From: Gemmatimonadaceae bacterium
GTDB lineage: Bacteria; Gemmatimonadota; Gemmatimonadetes; Gemmatimonadales; Gemmatimonadaceae
Assembly (NCBI GenBank): GCA_025934775.1
Contig: JAICWO010000001.1
Span: 1-64,000, forward strand
Reading direction: 5' to 3'
Length of the DNA stretch: 64,000 bases
Below, piece by piece: positions 4,449 to 14,628 of the stretch. How positions within the stretch are numbered: the first letter of the stretch is position 1; the number at the start of each line of letters is the position of its first letter. Made by a program: the position numbers and the translations under genes. A model generated the notes under the pieces. The model did not search any database. It was not told the DNA's origin and saw nothing but the letters and a program-made list of their open reading frames with translations.

Positions 4449-5927
4449 TCACCTCAACAAAATGTGCAGCGCCACATTGAAATAGATAATCAACCCCGTC
4501 ACATCCACGAACGTCGCGATGAACGGCGCCGATGCGCTCGCCGGATCGAAGCCCAATCCGCGGAACACGAACGGCAGCATCGATCCGACCAACGTTCCGA
4601 ACGCGACCACGCCGACGAGCGACACCGCGACCGTGAGCGCGAGGAGGAAATGCTGCCCCGCGTGTACCACGGGCAGGTTGTTCAGGTACGTCGTGTCGTA
4701 GTCGTGCCCGAGCTGGAAGGTGAGAAACGTCCAATGATGGTCGGCCATCGCCTGCCAGAGCTCGATGCGCACGAAGCCGATGATCGCGAGGATGATCCCG
4801 AGCGTGAGACCGGTCGCGATCTCCTTGCGCGCGACGCGCCACCAGTCGGGCACCGACACCTCGCGCAGCGCGAGCGCACGAATCAGCAGCGACGTGCCCT
4901 GCGACCCCGAGTTGCCGCCCGAGCTGATGATGAGCGGCAGAAAGAGCGCGAGCACGGTCTGCTTGTCGATCTCCTTCTGGTACGCGCCGAGCGCCGTCGC
5001 GGTGAGCATCTCGCCCAGGAACAGCGCGCTCAGCCAGCCCGCGCGCTTCTTGATCATCCGCCAGAAGGAGATCGTGGAGTACGGCTCGTCGAGCGCTTCC
5101 ATGCCGCCCAACTTCTGCACGTCTTCCGTCTGTTCTTCCTGCATGGCGTCGATCACGTCGTCGACGGTGATCACGCCCATGATGTGGCCGGACTCGCTGA
5201 CCACCGGCACCGCGACGAGGTCGTAATTCGCGATCACGCGCGCGACTTCCTCGCGATCGGCGCCCGGGCTCACGCTCACGACTTCGGTCCACGCGATCTC
5301 GCTGATCCTGGCGCCCGTCGGCGCGGCGAGCAGCTCGCGCAGCGACATGACGCCGACGACGCGCCCTTGCACGTCGGTCGTGTAGATCGCGTGCATCGCT
5401 TCTTTTTTCCCGCCGCGCGCGACGGCGCGCACGTTGTCGAGCGCCGCCTCCACCGTCATGTCCGCCGCGACCGAGACGAACTCGGTCGTCATCAGGCCGC
5501 CGGCGGAGTCCGGCTCGTACGAGAGGAGCTTCTCCGTCTCCTGCCGCGCTTCCGCCGGAATCTCGGAAAGAATCTCCTCGGCGTGCTCCTCGTCGATCTC
5601 CTCGAGCGTGTCGGCGCGATCGTCCGGCGTCATCTCCGAGACGAGCTCCGCCGCCTGCCGTGGCGTGATCGCCTCGAGGAACTCGGTCCTCAGCTCTTCG
5701 TCGAGGTACTCGAGCACGTCCGCGGCGCGCGCTGGGCCGAGTGCGGTGAGGAAAGCCTGGAGCTGGTCCTTCTCGAGGAGCTCGGCGACGTCGGCGAGAT
5801 CGGCGGGATGGATCTCCTCCGTCTCGGTGGCGATGTCGGCGGGTGACTCCTCGAGGAGCGCGACGATGTCGGGCGCGAGCAACGCGCCGACCGGCCGTTC
5901 CTCCGGATTTCGCTGAGGTGGCGCCAT
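4449..5927 (-). CDS. mgtE: Magnesium transporter MgtE
   Basis: A Mg2+-gated Mg2+ channel of the inner membrane. The protein has 492 residues with the usual MgtE order: an acidic helical MgtE_N domain (about residues 20-125, with many Glu/Asp and repeats like EEIHPADLADVAELL), two CBS domains (about 130-250, including GGLMTTEF and MGVITVDDVIDAM), a connecting helix, then five membrane helices with the conserved SSGGNSGSQ pore signature near residue 330. I chose the ATG at 5927, because the 33 residues encoded upstream in frame are Arg-rich and not part of the family. It diverges from blaI with about 210 bases between them. MgtE family members close when cytosolic Mg2+ is high through the N and CBS domains. 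Confidence 0.95.
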   Translation of the reverse strand: MAPPQRNPEERPVGALLAPDIVALLEESPADIATETEEIHPADLADVAELLEKDQLQAFLTALGPARAADVLEYLDEELRTEFLEAITPRQAAELVSEMTPDDRADTLEEIDEEHAEEILSEIPAEARQETEKLLSYEPDSAGGLMTTEFVSVAADMTVEAALDNVRAVARGGKKEAMHAIYTTDVQGRVVGVMSLRELLAAPTGARISEIAWTEVVSVSPGADREEVARVIANYDLVAVPVVSESGHIMGVITVDDVIDAMQEEQTEDVQKLGGMEALDEPYSTISFWRMIKKRAGWLSALFLGEMLTATALGAYQKEIDKQTVLALFLPLIISSGGNSGSQGTSLLIRALALREVSVPDWWRVARKEIATGLTLGIILAIIGFVRIELWQAMADHHWTFLTFQLGHDYDTTYLNNLPVVHAGQHFLLALTVAVSLVGVVAFGTLVGSMLPFVFRGLGFDPASASAPFIATFVDVTGLIIYFNVALHILLR

Positions 5928-6056
5928 GGCTGGCCCCCGCCGAATGAATGTGCTCGCCGTTGTCCTTGGGATGCGCGGCGTCAACATACCCAAGGGACGG
6001 GCGCGCGGACAACCCTGGAGGTACACCCATCGCGCGCCAGGAAGAAAAATTCGCGC

Positions 6057-6085
6057 TTGACAATTCCGCCGCGCGGTGCTGAATT
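6057..6085 (+). promoter_or_regulatory. Predicted sigma-70-type promoter of the blaI operon
   Basis: A consensus -35 TTGACA at 6057-6062 is followed after 17 bases by TGAATT at 6080-6085 as the -10. It lies 55 bases upstream of the blaI start, and its -10 falls inside the first operator-like repeat, as expected for an autoregulated repressor gene. Predicted from sequence only. Confidence 0.55.
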
Positions 6086-6111
6086 TCTAGCACGATGCTG
6101 GTTTTCTAGCA
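6077..6111 (+). promoter_or_regulatory. Double BlaI-type operator
   Basis: Two 16-bp units, TGCTGAATTTCTAGCA (6077-6092) and TGCTGGTTTTCTAGCA (6096-6111), repeat with 14 of 16 bases identical at a 19-bp period. Each has TGCT/AGCA inverted ends, as expected for sites bound by a BlaI/MecI-family dimer. They overlap the predicted -10 element, so bound repressor would block transcription of blaI and the M56 sensor gene. Confidence 0.6.
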
Positions 6112-6139
6112 GATACCCTTTCGCCACACCCGCGGATCA

Positions 6140-6523
6140 ATGGAAGTCATTCAGGAGCTCTCGAAGCGCGAACGCCAGGTCATGGATGCCGTCTACCAGC
6201 TCGGTCAGGCCACCGTCGCCGAGGTGCTGGAGCGGATTCCCGATCCGCCGAGCTACTCGGCGGTGCGCGCCACGATGCGCGTGCTCGTCGACAAGGGACA
6301 TCTCAAGCACAAGCAGGACGGCCCGCGCTACCTCTACGTGCCCACCGTTCCGCAGGACAAAGCGAAGACGGCCGCCGTCTCGCACCTCGTCGGCACGTTC
6401 TTCAACGGTTCCATGGAAGCGGCGGTGATGACGCTGCTTCAGATGAGCGACGCCAAGCTCTCCAAGAGCGACGTCGAACGGCTGCGCGCAAAGATCCGCG
6501 ACGCGGAGAAGGAGGGACGATGA
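6140..6523 (+). CDS. BlaI/MecI/CopY-family repressor
   Basis: A 127-residue transcriptional repressor. Residues 1-80 form the winged helix typical of BlaI (LSKRERQVMDAVYQLGQATVAEVLERI, then SYSAVRATMRVLVDKG as recognition helix, written here as separate stretches). The C-terminal part is the helical dimerisation and cleavage region. In this family the partner M56 metalloprotease senses a signal and cleaves or inactivates the repressor. The stop codon overlaps the next gene start (ATGA at 6520-6523), so the pair is translationally coupled. It is probably autoregulated through the double operator at 6077-6111. The signal is unknown; a beta-lactam link is not shown, because no beta-lactamase is nearby. 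Confidence 0.92.
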   Translation: MEVIQELSKRERQVMDAVYQLGQATVAEVLERIPDPPSYSAVRATMRVLVDKGHLKHKQDGPRYLYVPTVPQDKAKTAAVSHLVGTFFNGSMEAAVMTLLQMSDAKLSKSDVERLRAKIRDAEKEGR

Positions 6524-8925
6524 GCATCGACCTGGCGCACGTGATGACCTTCGTCGCCGCGACGGCGGTGAAGGGGACGGCGATTCTTGCGCTCGCGGCG
6601 CTCGGCGCGTACCTGCTGCGCCGCGCGTCGGCCGCATCGCGGCATCTCGTCTGGCAGTATTCGGTGATCGCCGTGCTCGCGCTCGCCGCCGCGTCGATGT
6701 TCGTGACGCCGCGGTGGCACGTGGGGCCGAGGGTGCTTGGGGCGTCGGAAGGTGCATCGACCGTGGCGCGTGGTCCGTCGGACGTGGTGACGAACCCGGC
6801 GTCGACGGTCGACGCGCCCCCGGCCGACATCCAGCCCCCACGGTCCGCCGTCGACGGTCCACGGTCCACGGTCCACGGTCCAAGTTCCACGGTCCACGGT
6901 CCATGGTTCACTGTCCACCAACCCCGGACGCTCGTCCAAACTCTCTTCACCCTCTGGCTCCTCGGCGCCGCGCTCATCCTGCTGCGCTTCGTGCTCGGCC
7001 TCGCGGTCGCGCGCTGGTACACCTGGCGCGCGACGGCGCTCGACGCCGCGAGTTGGGCGAGCTTGAACGAGACGATGTCGTTCGCGGTGGGACTTGGACA
7101 TCCGGTCACGCTGCTGCAGAGCGAGCGCGCTACTACGCCGATGACGTTCGGGATCTTCAGCCCGGTCGTGCTGCTGCCGATCGACGCGAACGACTGGGCG
7201 GAAGATCGCCGCCGCGCCGTGCTGCTCCACGAGCTGGCGCACGTGCAGCGGCTCGACGTGCTCACGAACACCTTCGCGACGCTCGCCACGGCGATCTACT
7301 GGTTCAATCCACTGATGTGGATCGCGGTGAAGCACATTCGCGCCGAGGGCGAGCGCGCGTGCGACGACTGGGTGCTGCGCGCCGGCATGCGCGCATCCAC
7401 GTACGCCGAGCATTTGCTCGACATGGTGAAGACGCTCGGCCGCGAGCCGATGCCCGCCGCGGCGCTGCCGATGGCGCAACGATCGACCTTCGAGGGTCGG
7501 CTACTCGCAATCCTGGAGCCTGGTATGAATCGCAGTGGACTGCGCCGCGGCTACGTGGCGTTGATGACGGCCGCGATCGCCGTCGTGGTGCTCCCGCTCT
7601 CGGCGATGACGACGCCCGCGGCGAACGCCGCGCCGCCCGCTTCGGCGAAGGACGTGCCACAGCAGGACGCGCCGAGCTCCAAAGAGCTCGGACGAGAGAT
7701 CGCGAACGCGACCTCGCACGTGATCGCGAATACGACGTCGAACATCGTCTCCACCCTCACGGACAAGGCGTTCTCGACGGCGTTGCAATCGATCGGCGCG
7801 TCGTCGACCTCGAGAGGGACGCAATCGGCGGCGACGATGAACGCGCTCATCTCCGCGCTCTCCGACAATGTCGCCGACGTCCGCCTGTCGGCGATTCGTT
7901 CGCTTGGCGAGTCGGGCGACCCGCGCGCGATCGATGCGTTGAGCAAAGCGCTGCGGAGCGACAAGGATCCCGAGGTGCGCCGAGCCGCGGCGTGGGGGCT
8001 CGGCAATCTCGACGACGCGCGCGGCATTCCCGCGCTCGCCGACGCGGTGAAAGGCGATGCGGATGCGGATGTGCGGCGCATGGCGGTGTGGGCGCTCGGC
8101 GAGATCGGCAGTCACGAAGGCGCGCCCGTGTTGATCGGCGCGCTCAAGGATCATGACGCCGGCGTGCGGCGCGACGCGGTCTGGGCACTGGGTGAGATTG
8201 GCGCGCACAGCGCGGCCGGTCCGATCACCGCGCTGTTGCACGACTCCGATGTGGACGTTCGCAAGGACGCGGTCTGGGCGCTCGGCGAGATCGGCGCACA
8301 CGAGAGCGCGGGCGCGCTCGCCGGTGCCTTGAGCGACGAGGACGCCGGCGTACGCGACGAGGCAGCATGGGCGCTCGGCGAGGTCGGTGCGCGCGCCTCG
8401 ACTGACGCGCTATCGAACTCGCTGCGCGCGGACAAGAGCCCGCAGGTGCGCGAGGACGCCGCGTGGGCGCTCGGGGAGATCGGCGATCCGTCGGCGATCC
8501 CGGGCTTGAACGCCGGGCTCAAGGACAGCGCGACCGGCGTTCGCTCGATGAGCGCGTGGGCGCTCGGCGAGATCGGCCGTCGTCCGGCGCCGCAGGGCCT
8601 CATCGACGCGATGCGCGACCCGAACGCGGGCGTGCGGCGCGACGCGGCCTGGGCGCTCGAGCAGATCGAGGACCCGAACAGCGTGGCCGCGCTGCGCGGC
8701 GCGCTGCACGACAGCGACGCCGACGTGAAGCGGGGCGCGCTGCGGGCGCTCTCGCGCATGGGCGACTCGTCGGCCGACGATGCCCTCTCGGAGATGTTAA
8801 AGTATCCTGATCCAAATATCAGAAAGGACGCGGCGGCGGCACTTGGCGGGCGCGGAGGCTTCCCCGATCCGCGTCCGAGGCCGCGCCCCCGCCCACGGCC
8901 GCGTCCCCGTCCGAACGGCTGGTAA
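6520..8925 (+). CDS. BlaR1/MecR1-like M56 metallopeptidase fused to HEAT repeats
   Basis: An 801-residue membrane sensor/antirepressor. Residues 14-62 hold two membrane helices. Residues 65-135 are a soluble linker with a perfect-looking heptapeptide repeat. A third helix follows (about 138-165), then the M56 zinc protease domain with HELAH at 237-241 and the downstream ExxxCD ligand region at 278-282. A further helix lies at 344-365. Instead of the penicillin-binding sensor domain of BlaR1, residues about 420-785 contain some twelve 31-residue HEAT/PBS-lyase repeats with the recurring AVWALGEIG core. The tail is an Arg-Pro repeat. By family analogy it degrades or inactivates the coupled BlaI on receiving a signal, here probably a protein contact through the HEAT array (inference). 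Confidence 0.9.
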   Translation: MSIDLAHVMTFVAATAVKGTAILALAALGAYLLRRASAASRHLVWQYSVIAVLALAAASMFVTPRWHVGPRVLGASEGASTVARGPSDVVTNPASTVDAPPADIQPPRSAVDGPRSTVHGPSSTVHGPWFTVHQPRTLVQTLFTLWLLGAALILLRFVLGLAVARWYTWRATALDAASWASLNETMSFAVGLGHPVTLLQSERATTPMTFGIFSPVVLLPIDANDWAEDRRRAVLLHELAHVQRLDVLTNTFATLATAIYWFNPLMWIAVKHIRAEGERACDDWVLRAGMRASTYAEHLLDMVKTLGREPMPAAALPMAQRSTFEGRLLAILEPGMNRSGLRRGYVALMTAAIAVVVLPLSAMTTPAANAAPPASAKDVPQQDAPSSKELGREIANATSHVIANTTSNIVSTLTDKAFSTALQSIGASSTSRGTQSAATMNALISALSDNVADVRLSAIRSLGESGDPRAIDALSKALRSDKDPEVRRAAAWGLGNLDDARGIPALADAVKGDADADVRRMAVWALGEIGSHEGAPVLIGALKDHDAGVRRDAVWALGEIGAHSAAGPITALLHDSDVDVRKDAVWALGEIGAHESAGALAGALSDEDAGVRDEAAWALGEVGARASTDALSNSLRADKSPQVREDAAWALGEIGDPSAIPGLNAGLKDSATGVRSMSAWALGEIGRRPAPQGLIDAMRDPNAGVRRDAAWALEQIEDPNSVAALRGALHDSDADVKRGALRALSRMGDSSADDALSEMLKYPDPNIRKDAAAALGGRGGFPDPRPRPRPRPRPRPRPNGW
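6856..6918 (+). repeat. Heptanucleotide tandem repeat inside the M56 sensor gene
   Basis: Nine consecutive 7-bp units of consensus GGTCCAC (six exact or one-base variants in the first seven, then GGTTCAC and TGTCCAC). Because 3 x 7 = 21, the coding frame reads heptapeptides GPRSTVH, GPSSTVH and GPWFTVH (residues 113-133). Gain or loss of one unit would shift the frame. Confidence 0.85.
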
Positions 8926-8943: not shown

Positions 8944-9762
8944 ATGACAATCGAGAGTGCAGCGGTGCGGTCCGGAACACGTCGGATCGCACCGAGGGCG
9001 GCGTTCGCCCTCGGAGTCACGGTGGTGACGTTCGCCGCGGCGGTGACGGCGTGCGCGATGGAAGCGCGCGGTGCGCGCGCGCCGCAGTCGGCCGCGGACG
9101 ACAGCGTGAGCGCGACCGCGGTGCTCGGCGCGGTGCGCGGTGAATCGCCGCTCGCGTGCAGCCTGACTGCGCGAACGGTCGAGAACCGCTGGGGAAGTCA
9201 ACATCACCTCGGCGGTCCCGACGCCGCGGCACTCGACGACGCGCAGGCCGCGGCGTTCGACTGGGTGATGACGAGTCGCGCGAATGAAATCGACGTGCTG
9301 CCGCTGCTCGAGCGCGCGATGGGCGATGCGGACGCGTGCGTTCGCAGGATCGCGGCGCAGCTCGTGGGGCGCGTAGGCGGCGCACAGCTCGCGGGCCAGT
9401 TGCACGCCGACCTCACCGCGGCCGATGCGACGCGTCGCGAAATGGCGGTGCTCGCGTTGGGGTACGCTGGAGAGAAATCCGCCGAGCCGGCGCTGGCGGG
9501 CATCGTGAAGGACGCGGAGCCGCGCGTACGACGGACGACAGCGTGGGCGCTCGGCCGAACTGACAACCAGGCTGCGGATTCCCCGTTGATGTCGATGCTG
9601 CGCGATGCCGACCCGATGGTGCGCGTGAACGCGGCGCTGTCGCTCGGGGAGCTCGAGGCATCGGCGGCGATCAACGCGTTGAGTGACTTGCTCGCGTCCG
9701 ATCATGATGCGCGCGTCCGTCGTGCGGCGGCGGCGGCATTGGGGGAGATGGACAAGAGCTGA
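8944..9762 (+). CDS. HEAT-repeat lipoprotein
   Basis: A 272-residue protein starting 18 bases after the M56-HEAT gene, with GGGAG before the ATG, so it is probably in the same operon. A basic N-terminus and a hydrophobic segment (about residues 18-36) end in VTAC (Cys37), a plausible lipobox. From about residue 95 on there are five to six HEAT/PBS-lyase repeats (LLERAMGDADACVRRIAAQL and TTAWALGRT-type units) like those of the upstream sensor. It may be an envelope-anchored partner of the HEAT domain of that sensor; this is inference from shared repeat type and adjacency. Confidence 0.8.
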   Translation: MTIESAAVRSGTRRIAPRAAFALGVTVVTFAAAVTACAMEARGARAPQSAADDSVSATAVLGAVRGESPLACSLTARTVENRWGSQHHLGGPDAAALDDAQAAAFDWVMTSRANEIDVLPLLERAMGDADACVRRIAAQLVGRVGGAQLAGQLHADLTAADATRREMAVLALGYAGEKSAEPALAGIVKDAEPRVRRTTAWALGRTDNQAADSPLMSMLRDADPMVRVNAALSLGELEASAAINALSDLLASDHDARVRRAAAAALGEMDKS

Positions 9763-10308
9763 CGGCTCAGTGTCATCCCGAGCGAGCCGACTCCCCCCAT
9801 CTGTCATCCCGAGCGAGCCGACTCCCCCCATCTGTCATCCCGAGCGAGCCGACTCCCCCATCTGTCATCCCGAGCGAGCCGAAGGCGAGTCGAGGGATCT
9901 GGGCTCGTGGCGCGCGATGCCTGCTTGGGGCTCGAGAGCGTCGCGCAGGGCTGCCTGGCCACGCGCGAATCGGCTTGGAATGGCGGGAACTACAATTGAA
10001 CGAAAACGGCACGAATTGAACGAACGATCCAGCGAGGGTCGCTTCAAAATGAATGTGGCCGCCATGCACGATGACTGCCGGTTCATTTCGTTCTAGTTCG
10101 TTGAATTGTTGTTCCTCTTGGTCCAAGCCGATTCGCGCGTACTCACCGGACCCGCGAGCAGGGCCGGAGCACCAAGCCGGCATCGCGCGCCACGAGCCCG
10201 GATCCCTCGACTCCCTCGCTTCCCTCGGTCGCGCGGGATGACGAGTGGGGAGCGCTTCGCTCGGTCGCTCGGGATGACAGCAGGCGGGCGCTGTGTTACC
10301 GTGCGTTC
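9763..10308. repeat. Repeat element A: 31-bp tandem copies plus long imperfect palindrome
   Basis: This 546-base gap contains no gene. At 9771-9862 a 31-bp unit (starting TGTCATCCCGAGCGAGCCGA) occurs three times in tandem, and a fourth partial copy leads into a long imperfect inverted repeat. The left arm (about 9863-10020) has GTCGAGGGATCTGGGCTCGTGG, written here only in part as GAGGGATCTGGGCTCGTGG. The right arm (about 10,090-10,282) has the complement ending GCTCGGGATGAC. The inner parts, with ACAATT and CGAATCGGCTTGGA and their complements, also pair. A related element is at 14,661-15,077. The last bases probably hold the bioF promoter. Confidence 0.75.
9771..9890 (+). repeat. 31-bp tandem repeat, 3.7 copies
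   Basis: Copies start at 9771, 9802, 9833 and 9863. The first two are identical, the third lacks one C of the C-tract, and the fourth diverges after the first 20 bases. Together they multiply the outer end of repeat element A. Confidence 0.85.
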
Positions 10309-11492
10309 GTGCCCGCACTCACGACTCCAACGTCGCTCGACGATGTGCTCCGCGCGGAGCTCGACGCGATTCGCGCACGCGGTCTCGAGCGGTCGCTGCG
10401 ACCGCTGCACCATCGCCGAGGTGCGGTCGTCGCAACGAGCGCTGGCGATGCGATCGACTTCTCGTCGAATGACTACCTCGGCCTCGCGTCTAACGAGCGC
10501 GTCATCGCCGCGGCGCGCGCCGCGCTGACGGATGCTGGCGTCGGAGCCACGGCGTCGCGGTTGATCGCCGGCGATCACCCCGAGCACGAGTCGCTCGAGC
10601 GCGAGCTCGCGGAGTTCTTGAACGCCGAGCGCGCGATTCTCTATGGCAGCGGATATCTCGCGAACGTGGGGACGATCCCGGCGCTCGTCGGCCGTGACGA
10701 TGTGATCTTCGCGGACCAGCTCAATCACGCGTCGCTGATCGACGGTTGTCGGTTGAGCCGAGCGACGGTGCACGTGTACGATCATGCCGATATCGACGCG
10801 CTTGCATCGCTGCTCGCGGCGCATCGTGCATCGCACCGCCGCGCGCTCATCGTCACCGATGGCGTGTTCTCGATGGACGGCGACCGCGCGCGGCTCGCCG
10901 GCATCGTAAAGCTCGCGCGTGCGCACGATGCATGGACGTACGTCGACGACGCGCACGCCGTGGGCGTGCTCGGTCCAGCGGGACGCGGGACCGCGGAATC
11001 GCTCGGCGTGAGCGGTGTCGACGTCACGGTCGGCACGCTCGGCAAAGCGTTCGGCGGCGCGGGCGCTTTCGTCACCGGCTCGGCGACCTTGTGCGCGTTT
11101 CTTCTGAATCGCGCACGGTCGTTCATCTTCTCGACCGCGATGCTCCCCGCGCAGGCCGCCGCCGCGCGCGAAGCGTTGCGCATCGTGCGGAGCGAACCGG
11201 AGCGGCGCGAGCGACTTGCGCGCAACGCACGCGCGCTCCGCGCCGCGCTCGACGCGCGCGGCGTGCGGGCGATCGGCGACGACGCGGCGCACATCGTCCC
11301 CGTCATCATCGGGGACGCCGCGCGCACGATGCACGTGGGAGAGGTGCTCGGCGCGCGCGGATTTCTCGTCGGCGCCGTGCGGCCACCGACCGTGCCCGAT
11401 GGGACGTCGCGACTTCGCATCACGATGAGCGCCGCGCACACACTCGATCAGATCGGCGGACTCGCCGACGCGTTGGCCGCGGCGGTTCGCGC

Positions 11493-11496
<4 letters not shown>
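10309..11496 (+). CDS. bioF: 8-amino-7-oxononanoate synthase
   Basis: The PLP enzyme that condenses pimeloyl-ACP (or CoA) with L-alanine in biotin synthesis. It has 395 residues with a GTG start. It contains the alpha-oxoamine synthase hallmarks: FSSNDYLGLASNERV near residue 45, the substrate-loop HASLIDG (about 142-148), the PLP-stacking DDAHAVGVLG (about 212-221), and the Schiff-base lysine in GTLGKAFGG (about 243-251). Full length for the family. It is the first gene of bioFADB; its last codon overlaps the bioA start (ATGA at 11,493-11,496). Confidence 0.96.
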
Positions 11497-13450
<1,954 letters not shown>

Positions 13451-13563
13451 TTCAATGCCGATTCACAGTACGAGTGTGTCGCGGGGGAGACGGAGCGTAC
13501 TGACTGATGCGGGAAGACCTTTATTGTTGTTCTTCTGTGCTGTTCCGTCACCCCGTGTGATCC

Positions 13564-14628
13564 GTGCCTGACCGAACTTTCACGAACGCGATGCCTACAA
13601 ACTGGAACGATTTCGCCGATCGCGCGCTCGCCGGCGACGTGCTCTCGCGCGACGAAGCCCGCCGCGTCCTGAACGCGCCCGACGACGAGCTGCTCGAGCA
13701 ACTCGCCGCGGCGTACCGCGTGCGCCGGCATTTTCACGGCAACCGCGTCCGTCTTCACTTTCTGCTCAACGCGCAGAGCGGGCTCTGTCCGGAAGACTGT
13801 CACTACTGCTCGCAATCGGCCGTGTCGACCGCGGAGATCGAGAAATACCCCTTCATGGCCCGTGAGAAGATTCTCGCGGCGGCGGAGCGCGCGGCGAGTC
13901 TCAACGTCGGCACGTTCTGCATGGTGATCTCCGGGCGCGCGCCGGGCGAGCGCGTGTTTCAGAAGGTGCTGGATGCGGTCCGCGAGGTGAAAGAGCGGCA
14001 CGACATGCACGTCTGTGCGTGCCTCGGACTGTTGACGGAAGATCACGTGACTCGGCTCGAGGAGGCGGGCGTCGACCAGGTGAATCACAATCTCAACAGC
14101 TCCGAGCGGTTCACGAACGAGATCGTGACGACGCACAGCTTCGGCGATCGCGTCGCGACCGTGGAGCACGTCGCCAAGTCGCGCATGAAGACCTGCTCCG
14201 GCGGCATCATCGGCATGGGCGAGACCGACGACGACGTGATCGACCTCGCGCTGTCGTTGCGGGAGCTCGGCGTGCGCAGCGTGCCCGTCAATTTTTTGAT
14301 TCCTATAGAAGGAACGCCGTTCGAGTCGCGCGACGCACTCGATCCGCGTCGCTGTCTGCGCGTGCTGTGCCTCTACCGCTTCCTGCTCCCGTCGCAGGAG
14401 ATTCGCATCGCCGGCGGCCGCGAGGTGCACCTCCGCTCCATGCAGCCGCTTGGCCTCTACGCCGCGAACTCGATCTTCATTGGCGACTACCTCACCACGC
14501 CAGGACAAGCCGCGCGCGCCGACTACGAGATGATTCGCGACGCCGGCTTCGTGCTCGAGGCGCCGGACGGTACGCCCCTCGACGCGGCGAAGTTGGACGA
14601 GTTGATCGCGGAGACCGCGGCGGGGTGA
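13564..14628 (+). CDS. bioB: Biotin synthase
   Basis: A radical SAM enzyme that inserts sulfur into dethiobiotin. It has 354 residues if started at the GTG at 13,564; the ATG at 13,591 is an alternative that removes nine residues. The [4Fe-4S]/SAM motif CPEDCHYC is at about residues 75-82, and [18 protein letters not shown] and GGIIGMGE follow in the usual order. It lies 113 bases after bioD, the only sizeable gap in the operon, so it might have extra regulation. No BirA-type operator is obvious. Confidence 0.96.

Follow-up and report, generated by a model that had tools for sequence, protein, structure and literature searches.

The closest described relatives of the operon reported here are the BlaI-BlaR1 and MecI-MecR1 systems of Staphylococcus and Bacillus licheniformis, in which a BlaI-family repressor is paired with an M56 zinc metalloprotease and dyad operators lie at the promoters. 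We analyzed a stretch of 64,000 nucleotides (the window) from a Gemmatimonadaceae bacterium (GenBank assembly GCA_025934775.1, contig JAICWO010000001.1, positions 1 to 64,000), which carries an operon encoding a BlaI/MecI-family repressor, an M56 protease joined to a C-terminal array of HEAT repeats, and a secreted HEAT protein (Table 1). The operon shares with the described systems the repressor and protease families, four membrane helices, the HEXXH and ExxxD motifs, a C-terminal part predicted to lie outside and the dyad operators. It differs from them in having a HEAT array in place of the penicillin-binding domain, an extra gene for a secreted partner and, under the operator, a CBM9/DUF5916 gene instead of a beta-lactamase gene. 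With moderate confidence, we read the locus as an autoregulated BlaI/M56 circuit whose HEAT arm is controlled by contact with another protein, probably the HEAT partner, which would feed back on the arm. What the circuit monitors is probably the envelope of the cell itself and not antibiotics.

The sensor gene, which overlaps the blaI gene by 4 bases, is a single open reading frame (ORF) of 801 amino acids (aa). Pfam places Peptidase_M56 over aa 21-330 (7.7e-35, 120.9 bits against a cut-off of 31) and HEAT_2, likewise above its cut-off, in the second half (8.6e-71, 234.7 bits), bearing out the fusion of an M56 antirepressor with a HEAT array that a first, sequence-only reading of the window had proposed. 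The NCBIfam model blaR1_generic covers aa 135-297 only, its 94.7 bits lying far under the cut-off of 400, and no penicillin-binding or beta-lactamase domain was detected in the 801-aa sensor by the Pfam and NCBIfam scans. Because a penicillin-binding domain was searched for and not found, the locus is, judged by its domains, an M56/BlaI system and not a BlaR1 receptor. Beta-lactam sensing as the default reading was set aside, as the scans gave no such domain and the product of the second gene found under the double operator in the genome, described below, is no beta-lactamase.

The M56 part of the sensor matches the solved BlaR1 structure (8exs; E 5.9e-07). In an alignment of 20 of the 28 HEAT-fused M56 proteins from our survey, the window's own included, residues H237, E238, H241, D246, E278, D282, Y295 and R327 are invariant in 20/20. 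They correspond to the BlaR1 catalytic residues H201ExxH, E242xxxD, D210, Y261 and R294 named in PMC9834060, Y295 and R327 having been paired with theirs by reading the alignment of the 8exs structural match. Hydrophobic segments and AlphaFold helices together indicate four membrane spans. Since arginines occur in the short loop joining helix 1 to helix 2 and ahead of helix 4, the protease site is predicted to lie in the cytoplasm and the HEAT array outside it, as in BlaR1, whose N and C termini are both outside (PMC9834060).

The linker from helix 4 to the array is modelled by AlphaFold at low confidence, with a predicted helix at aa 387-425. A motif search found nine HEAT repeats at a spacing of 31-32 aa, which has room for two more; the profile counts 11 repeats, and the AlphaFold model contains 22 helices at aa 437-775, with a predicted local distance difference test (pLDDT) score above 90 over most of the stretch. 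The sequence-only reading had counted about twelve repeats, a figure that these three measures bring down to 11, while its proposal that the array replaces the BlaR1 sensor holds, on the side predicted to be extracytoplasmic. The HEAT arm matches alphaRep structures. The arm and most of the partner have the repeat family and fold of PBS-lyase-type HEAT proteins and of the designed alphaRep proteins; unlike in these, the repeats in the window lie within a membrane protease and a secreted protein. No cysteine occurs after residue 370 in 18/20 of the aligned sensors. A CCACGGT tandem repeat lies inside the M56 coding sequence, with a unit length not divisible by three, and might conceivably cause frame switching; a 21-base piece taken from it matches the genome 57 times at up to one mismatch, overlapping matches counted, so that the repeat is an interspersed one.

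The partner gene begins 18 bases past the stop codon of the sensor gene, and the model of its product (mean pLDDT 83) matches HEAT and alphaRep structures. Partners were aligned for 20 of the 22 cases (21 adjacent and one unlinked; L068, a close copy of L066, and L087 were left out), with start codons picked by script and by eye. C72 and C132, in the numbering of the window partner, are invariant in 20/20, and in a crude scan of the first residues the strongest hydrophobic stretch lies at the N terminus in 19/20 and further in for L053. The neighbouring gene had been described as a lipoprotein with the same repeats. The repeats are confirmed (HEAT_2 3.1e-23), but lipoprotein as a conserved partner trait had to be given up: a strict lipobox occurs in 1/20 aligned members, the window's own with its lipobox-like VTAC, and three more have a cysteine near that position. 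For this reason 'secreted HEAT protein' seems the safer name, although the window partner, taken alone, could still prove to be a lipoprotein.

In many relatives sensor and partner share a C-terminal tail type made of proline, tryptophan and arginine (PWPWPxPRPRPFP); the window sensor has a Pro/Arg version, and the window partner has no tail. The DNA pattern of the tail was found at 13 places in 9/24 genomes, with one control hit. Ten of these places are at sensor or partner genes by position, the eleventh (G080) belongs to a HEAT protein that is unlinked and has this tail too, and two are elsewhere. Repeat counts by profile are 11+5 for sensor and partner in the window and mostly 5-6 and 9-11 in many relatives, and an exchange of repeats between the two proteins is a suggestive possibility. 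A recent duplication of the sensor arm into the partner was rejected as a general rule, as among 20 paired cases only L087 looks so; its partner, which is of another type without the cysteine module, is a near copy of its sensor array (70% identity over 236 residues).

A search with the window's M56 domain gave matches in 124/200 genomes of the phylum. Eighty regions were taken around better-scoring matches, with some matches of comparable score left aside; the sample is biased towards relatives of this M56 protein. A BlaI gene is present in 79/80 regions, the exception being L088, where the M56 gene starts at a contig end. Among 85 M56 ORFs besides that of the window (two of them in its own genome), 27 carry a HEAT array by score threshold and 58 do not. 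The survey of BlaI-coupled M56 proteins, which had been proposed as a check, thus finds further HEAT fusions, and the recurrence of the operon type across the sample speaks against a chance arrangement.

An adjacent HEAT partner accompanies 21 of 27 HEAT-fused M56 genes (window included) and none of the 52 others, the 79 genes being the 84 rows of the M56 tree minus five whose downstream side is truncated by a contig end. The Fisher test gives 4e-14, a value inflated by shared ancestry, since on the tree between two and four of the five independent pairs are informative, and these all agree with the association (p 0.125-0.5). The sequence-only reading had named a lack of such co-occurrence as a result that would refute it, and the counts go against that result. 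In the M56 tree, 22 of the 28 HEAT rows fall into one supported set of 24 (95/84), and of the two other members of the set L044 is cut at a contig end. Because the tree requires seven HEAT changes, six of them forced by supported branches, HEAT arms are, as far as this tree goes, gained or lost several times.

Long C-terminal parts, by eye another helical repeat of ~38 residues, are seen in the HEAT-less M56 proteins of L055, L064, L045 and L039. Pfam scans of L055, L064 and L039 returned M56 only, and a DUF5916 gene lies near L064, L045 and L039 and not near L055. The window's own genome (4.88 Mb; G000 among the surveyed genomes and loci, labelled G and L) contains three more BlaI-M56 pairs (C35, C20 and C7; L005-L007), with C-terminal parts showing a weak HEAT match below the cut-off, a TonB-receptor plug match and TonB_C domains. 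Its M56 paralogues L007 (TonB_C) and L006 (plug) resemble the window system in the BlaI-M56 pairing and differ from it in their C-terminal domains, and no HEAT partner was seen in their regions. A fifth BlaI gene (C17, L008) has no M56 match on its contig.

Outside the phylum, 84,980 species genomes were scanned with an M56 alignment and the best 80 loci were kept. A BlaI gene is present in 74 of these best 80 and a HEAT arm on M56 in five: L211 (bacterium SM23_31); L215 (Gemmatimonadaceae), with a partner and a double operator; L249 (Vicinamibacteria), with a HEAT protein upstream and one operator site; L265 (Acidobacteriota), with neither partner nor operator site; and L274 (Acidobacteria), with a DUF5916 gene upstream and two operator-like sites. 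Because of these five arms, the M56-HEAT architecture is, to judge from the records, not limited to this phylum.

The regulatory side of the circuit is read from the intergenic region ahead of blaI. By position weight matrix (PWM), the third-best operator score in the 64-kb window is 13.2 bits, against 24.1 and 20.9 for the two operators of the operon. Together these span 14-50 bases behind the TTGACA hexamer and so cover the presumed -10 region. BlaI-type dyad operators are accordingly predicted to overlap the operon's promoter, and BlaI, proposed as the output by the sequence-only reading, is a likely one. That reading did not mention the operators themselves, the second operator-bearing gene (CBM9/DUF5916), the two invariant cysteines in the partner or the tail that sensor and partner have in common in many relatives. 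The 18-bp dyad, with a core of about TGYTRAWWWWTYARCA, is enriched upstream of BlaI genes, reaching at least 7 bits in 68/85 regions and in 5/85 shuffled ones, with a PWM trained on the same 85 BlaI upstream regions that were scored. In the whole genome the single-site pattern has four strand-forward matches, all within two double sites, that of the window operon and G000:C7:49429-49463, and the double-site pattern at up to two mismatches returns the same two places, both exact. The exact double pattern has no control match in this genome, and upstream of its four other BlaI genes no site over 7 bits was found.

The second double operator (L125:9430-9464) has the same TTGACA, one base closer. 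The gene behind it encodes 862 residues with CBM9 (3.6e-12) and DUF5916 (2e-65); its protein gave no useful PDB match, and the gene probably encodes an outer-membrane barrel. Across the 200 phylum genomes the exact double pattern occurs at 32 sites in 23 genomes (reversed control, 7), and by position and region inspection 23 of the 32 precede BlaI genes. The other nine precede DUF5916 genes in G000, G140, G177 and G143, a HEAT gene twice in G052, and three other ORFs. In G140 and G000 the HEAT operon itself carries a double site; in G177 the 16 bases of the one site in the HEAT operon, L043, recur exactly within the DUF5916 site. In G052 the M56-HEAT gene has no HEAT neighbour, and one of the two operator-bearing HEAT genes is a canonical partner, with cysteine module and tail, that is unlinked.

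Other HEAT operons typically have a variant motif, which at up to one mismatch matches in 13/200 genomes with no control hits. Beyond HEAT operons it is found at a DUF5916 gene in G021 (an open frame without stops), a DUF5916 remnant in G023, a BlaI gene in G062 and a site in G170; in most genomes having such HEAT operons, no unlinked DUF5916 site was found. The DUF5916 gene behind the operator variant in G023 (L172) seems reduced to its two ends, and that of G021, of the same genus, is full-length. Irrespective of operators, a DUF5916 gene is present in 22/85 M56 neighbourhoods, in 20 of the 22 downstream on the same strand; the expectation is ~0.02 per 10 kb, from 204 match rows, in which some genes are counted several times, in ~106.6 Mb of 24 chosen genomes.

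From these parts we propose the following scheme. In the off state, BlaI would occupy the two promoter-overlapping operators and repress blaI, the M56-HEAT gene, the HEAT partner gene and the unlinked CBM9/DUF5916 gene. The M56 protein would span the inner membrane, its zinc site facing the cytoplasm and its HEAT arm reaching into the periplasm. A change in the ligand bound to the arm would alter the membrane part and unlock the protease; by analogy with BlaR1, the M56 protein would then cut BlaI, and the regulon would be expressed. The secreted partner, which has the same repeats and lies under the same operators, most likely attaches to the arm, resetting or tuning the sensor; because BlaI would control its synthesis, it would complete a feedback loop. 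It is the obvious candidate for binding the arm because it tracks the arm rather than M56 as such, follows the arm in trans (G052), and has the same fold and, in many relatives, the same tail. The fold, predicted topology, catalytic residues, operators, regulon members and co-occurrence are supported by computation; BlaI cleavage, partner-sensor contact, the sign of the feedback and the stimulus are what we infer.

The inflated Fisher value is one of several points that weigh against this scheme. Among the 23 BlaI double sites, five stand at HEAT-fused M56 operons (G000, G048, G051 C65, G140 and G183) and most others at HEAT-less ones. Because of this, the double operator is, in the genomes scanned, a general trait of BlaI-M56 operons and no specialty of the HEAT version, and our confidence in the circuit is the lower for it. 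In the own genome the reversed control pattern, which is CG-rich, outnumbers the operator pattern, with 22 matches versus 4 for the single site and 8 versus 2 for the double site at up to two mismatches, so that single or mismatched operator sites deserve little weight. Three non-blaI double sites lie at other genes: an S41 peptidase (G071), an M16 peptidase (G176) and a G183 ORF with masked bases that by eye looks like a permease fragment. In G177 the double site is at a HEAT-less BlaI gene (L099) and the HEAT operon has one site; in G143 operator and DUF5916 gene are present and no M56 match was found; in G019 a variant-motif site precedes an unidentified ORF. DUF5916 genes also adjoin HEAT-less M56 genes (11/58, and 11/27 with HEAT), and that DUF5916 proteins form outer-membrane barrels is our own presumption. 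As to the partner, 6/27 HEAT-fused M56 genes have none adjacent, the partners of the co-occurrence test were listed by hand, and a few of the 52 genes have little downstream sequence (L080, 391 bases; L097, 656; L050, 1130; L041, 1245). In 19/20 paired cases, moreover, the partner is closer to the partners of other species than to its own sensor. A similarity between the S41 peptidase under the G071 operator and its HEAT-less M56 (L045) was considered and rejected, the best E being 1.9.

Part of this evidence also fits a circuit of the same build in which the partner is output and not ligand. It would be a periplasmic chaperone or scaffold working alongside the DUF5916 protein, and the arm would have another ligand: peptidoglycan, for example, or an outer-membrane protein in the unfolded state, or the DUF5916 protein. 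Partner and DUF5916 genes would then simply share a regulon, as the same kind of operator at both and the frequent adjoining of DUF5916 and M56 genes suggest, and neither the standing of the partners as a family apart from the sensors nor the HEAT-fused genes lacking an adjacent partner would be out of place. We think this possible, though unlikely, since the partner tracks the HEAT arm and not M56 (0/52 HEAT-less), whereas DUF5916 goes with both, and since sensor and partner have a common C-terminal tail in many relatives. Much less probable is a HEAT arm that is cytoplasmic or no receptor at all, a scaffold to which BlaI or further proteins of the cytoplasm would be recruited. A cytoplasmic location is common among known HEAT proteins, and the topology of the sensor is a prediction, but the four membrane segments with arginine-rich flanks on the predicted inner side, and the partner's hydrophobic N-terminal segment and invariant cysteines, point the other way, as does the match to BlaR1 with its termini outside (PMC9834060). 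Least probable of all, and highly improbable, is a switch for beta-lactam or other antibiotic resistance of the blaI-blaR1-blaZ kind, in which the HEAT part would have taken both the place and the function of the penicillin-binding domain: the M56/BlaI relationship is in its favour, but neither a penicillin-binding nor a beta-lactamase domain was detected in the sensor, and the other double-operator gene of the genome is CBM9/DUF5916.

The operon is flanked by a divergent MgtE-type magnesium transporter gene, which may be co-regulated with it because the operators sit in the intergenic region common to both. After the operon, at 9771-9882 of the window, lies a 31-bp tandem repeat with the core GTCATCCCGAGCG, which recurs at 10266, 14671, 15025 and 15063. 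Biotin synthesis genes follow at 10309-14628, with bioF at 10309-11496 and further ORFs that by eye resemble bioA, bioD and bioB.

Table 1. Features of the BlaI/M56-HEAT operon and its surroundings (window coordinates).
Feature	Position	Strand	Basis
MgtE-type magnesium transporter gene, divergent from the operon	4449-6026	-	Library scan
-35-like hexamer TTGACA	6057..6062	+	Sequence
Predicted BlaI-type operator 1, GTGCTGAATTTCTAGCAC, overlapping the presumed -10 region	6076..6093	+	PWM score 24.1, best of the 64-kb window
Predicted operator 2, ATGCTGGTTTTCTAGCAG, 19 bp from operator 1	6095..6112	+	PWM score 20.9, second best of the window
BlaI/MecI-family repressor, 127 aa	6140..6523	+	Pfam Penicillinase_R 2e-28, 99.5 bits against a cut-off of 22.6
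M56 metalloprotease with C-terminal HEAT array (antirepressor/sensor), 801 aa	6520..8925	+	ORF, Pfam, alignment, AlphaFold model
Membrane and protease part; helices aa 5-32, 38-61, 135-170, 343-362; HELAH aa 237-241, D246, E278xxxD282, Y295, R327	6520..7605	+	AlphaFold helices, hydrophobic segments, invariant columns, BlaR1 residues named in PMC9834060
7-bp tandem repeat CCACGGT, 11.6 imperfect copies, in the loop between helices 2 and 3 of M56	6838..6918	+	Sequence repeat scan
HEAT array, 11 repeats, predicted extracytoplasmic	7828..8844	+	Motif spacing, profile, AlphaFold model, alphaRep matches
C-terminal Pro/Arg tail FPDPRPRPRPRPRPRPRPNGW, in the position of the PWPWPxPRPRPFP-type tails of relatives	8860..8922	+	Alignments
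Secreted HEAT partner, 272 aa; hydrophobic N-terminal segment, N-terminal module with C72 and C132, ~5 repeats	8944..9762	+	HEAT_2 3.1e-23, profile, family alignment

Envelope sensing with a periplasmic accessory protein is well known from the CpxA-CpxP and DegS/RseP-RseA-RseB pathways, where CpxP and RseB reset or tune the sensors; the Cpx accessory is itself a member of the regulon. These pathways differ from the window system in their sensor and transducer families, and we claim no sequence relationship. The likeness of the window partner to such feedback proteins extends only to co-occurrence and shared operators. DegS is treated in PMC7593790.

A full-text search of mostly open-access literature showed no paper on M56-HEAT proteins and none containing 'DUF5916'; the parts are known, and none of the papers shown by the search describes their combination. 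More tentatively than the circuit itself, and at somewhat less than even confidence, we propose that it represents an undescribed class of envelope-surveillance circuits, common in the phylum and with a few Acidobacteriota records. In this class a HEAT solenoid on M56 would report on the occupancy of a secreted HEAT protein with the same fold, BlaI would control both the partner and an outer-membrane CBM9/DUF5916 protein, a periplasmic repeat-to-repeat contact would replace small-molecule binding, and BlaI/M56 would be a transducer of general use that can take different repeat sensors. Most of what is known of BlaI/BlaR1 concerns its role as an antibiotic-resistance switch; in the window, the membrane protease and repressor of that switch appear to relay signals from outside to inside more generally, with a sensor arm that can be exchanged. 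With its predicted operators, secreted partner and target gene, the system makes two questions testable, namely what M56 regulators without a penicillin-binding domain sense and what DUF5916 proteins do.

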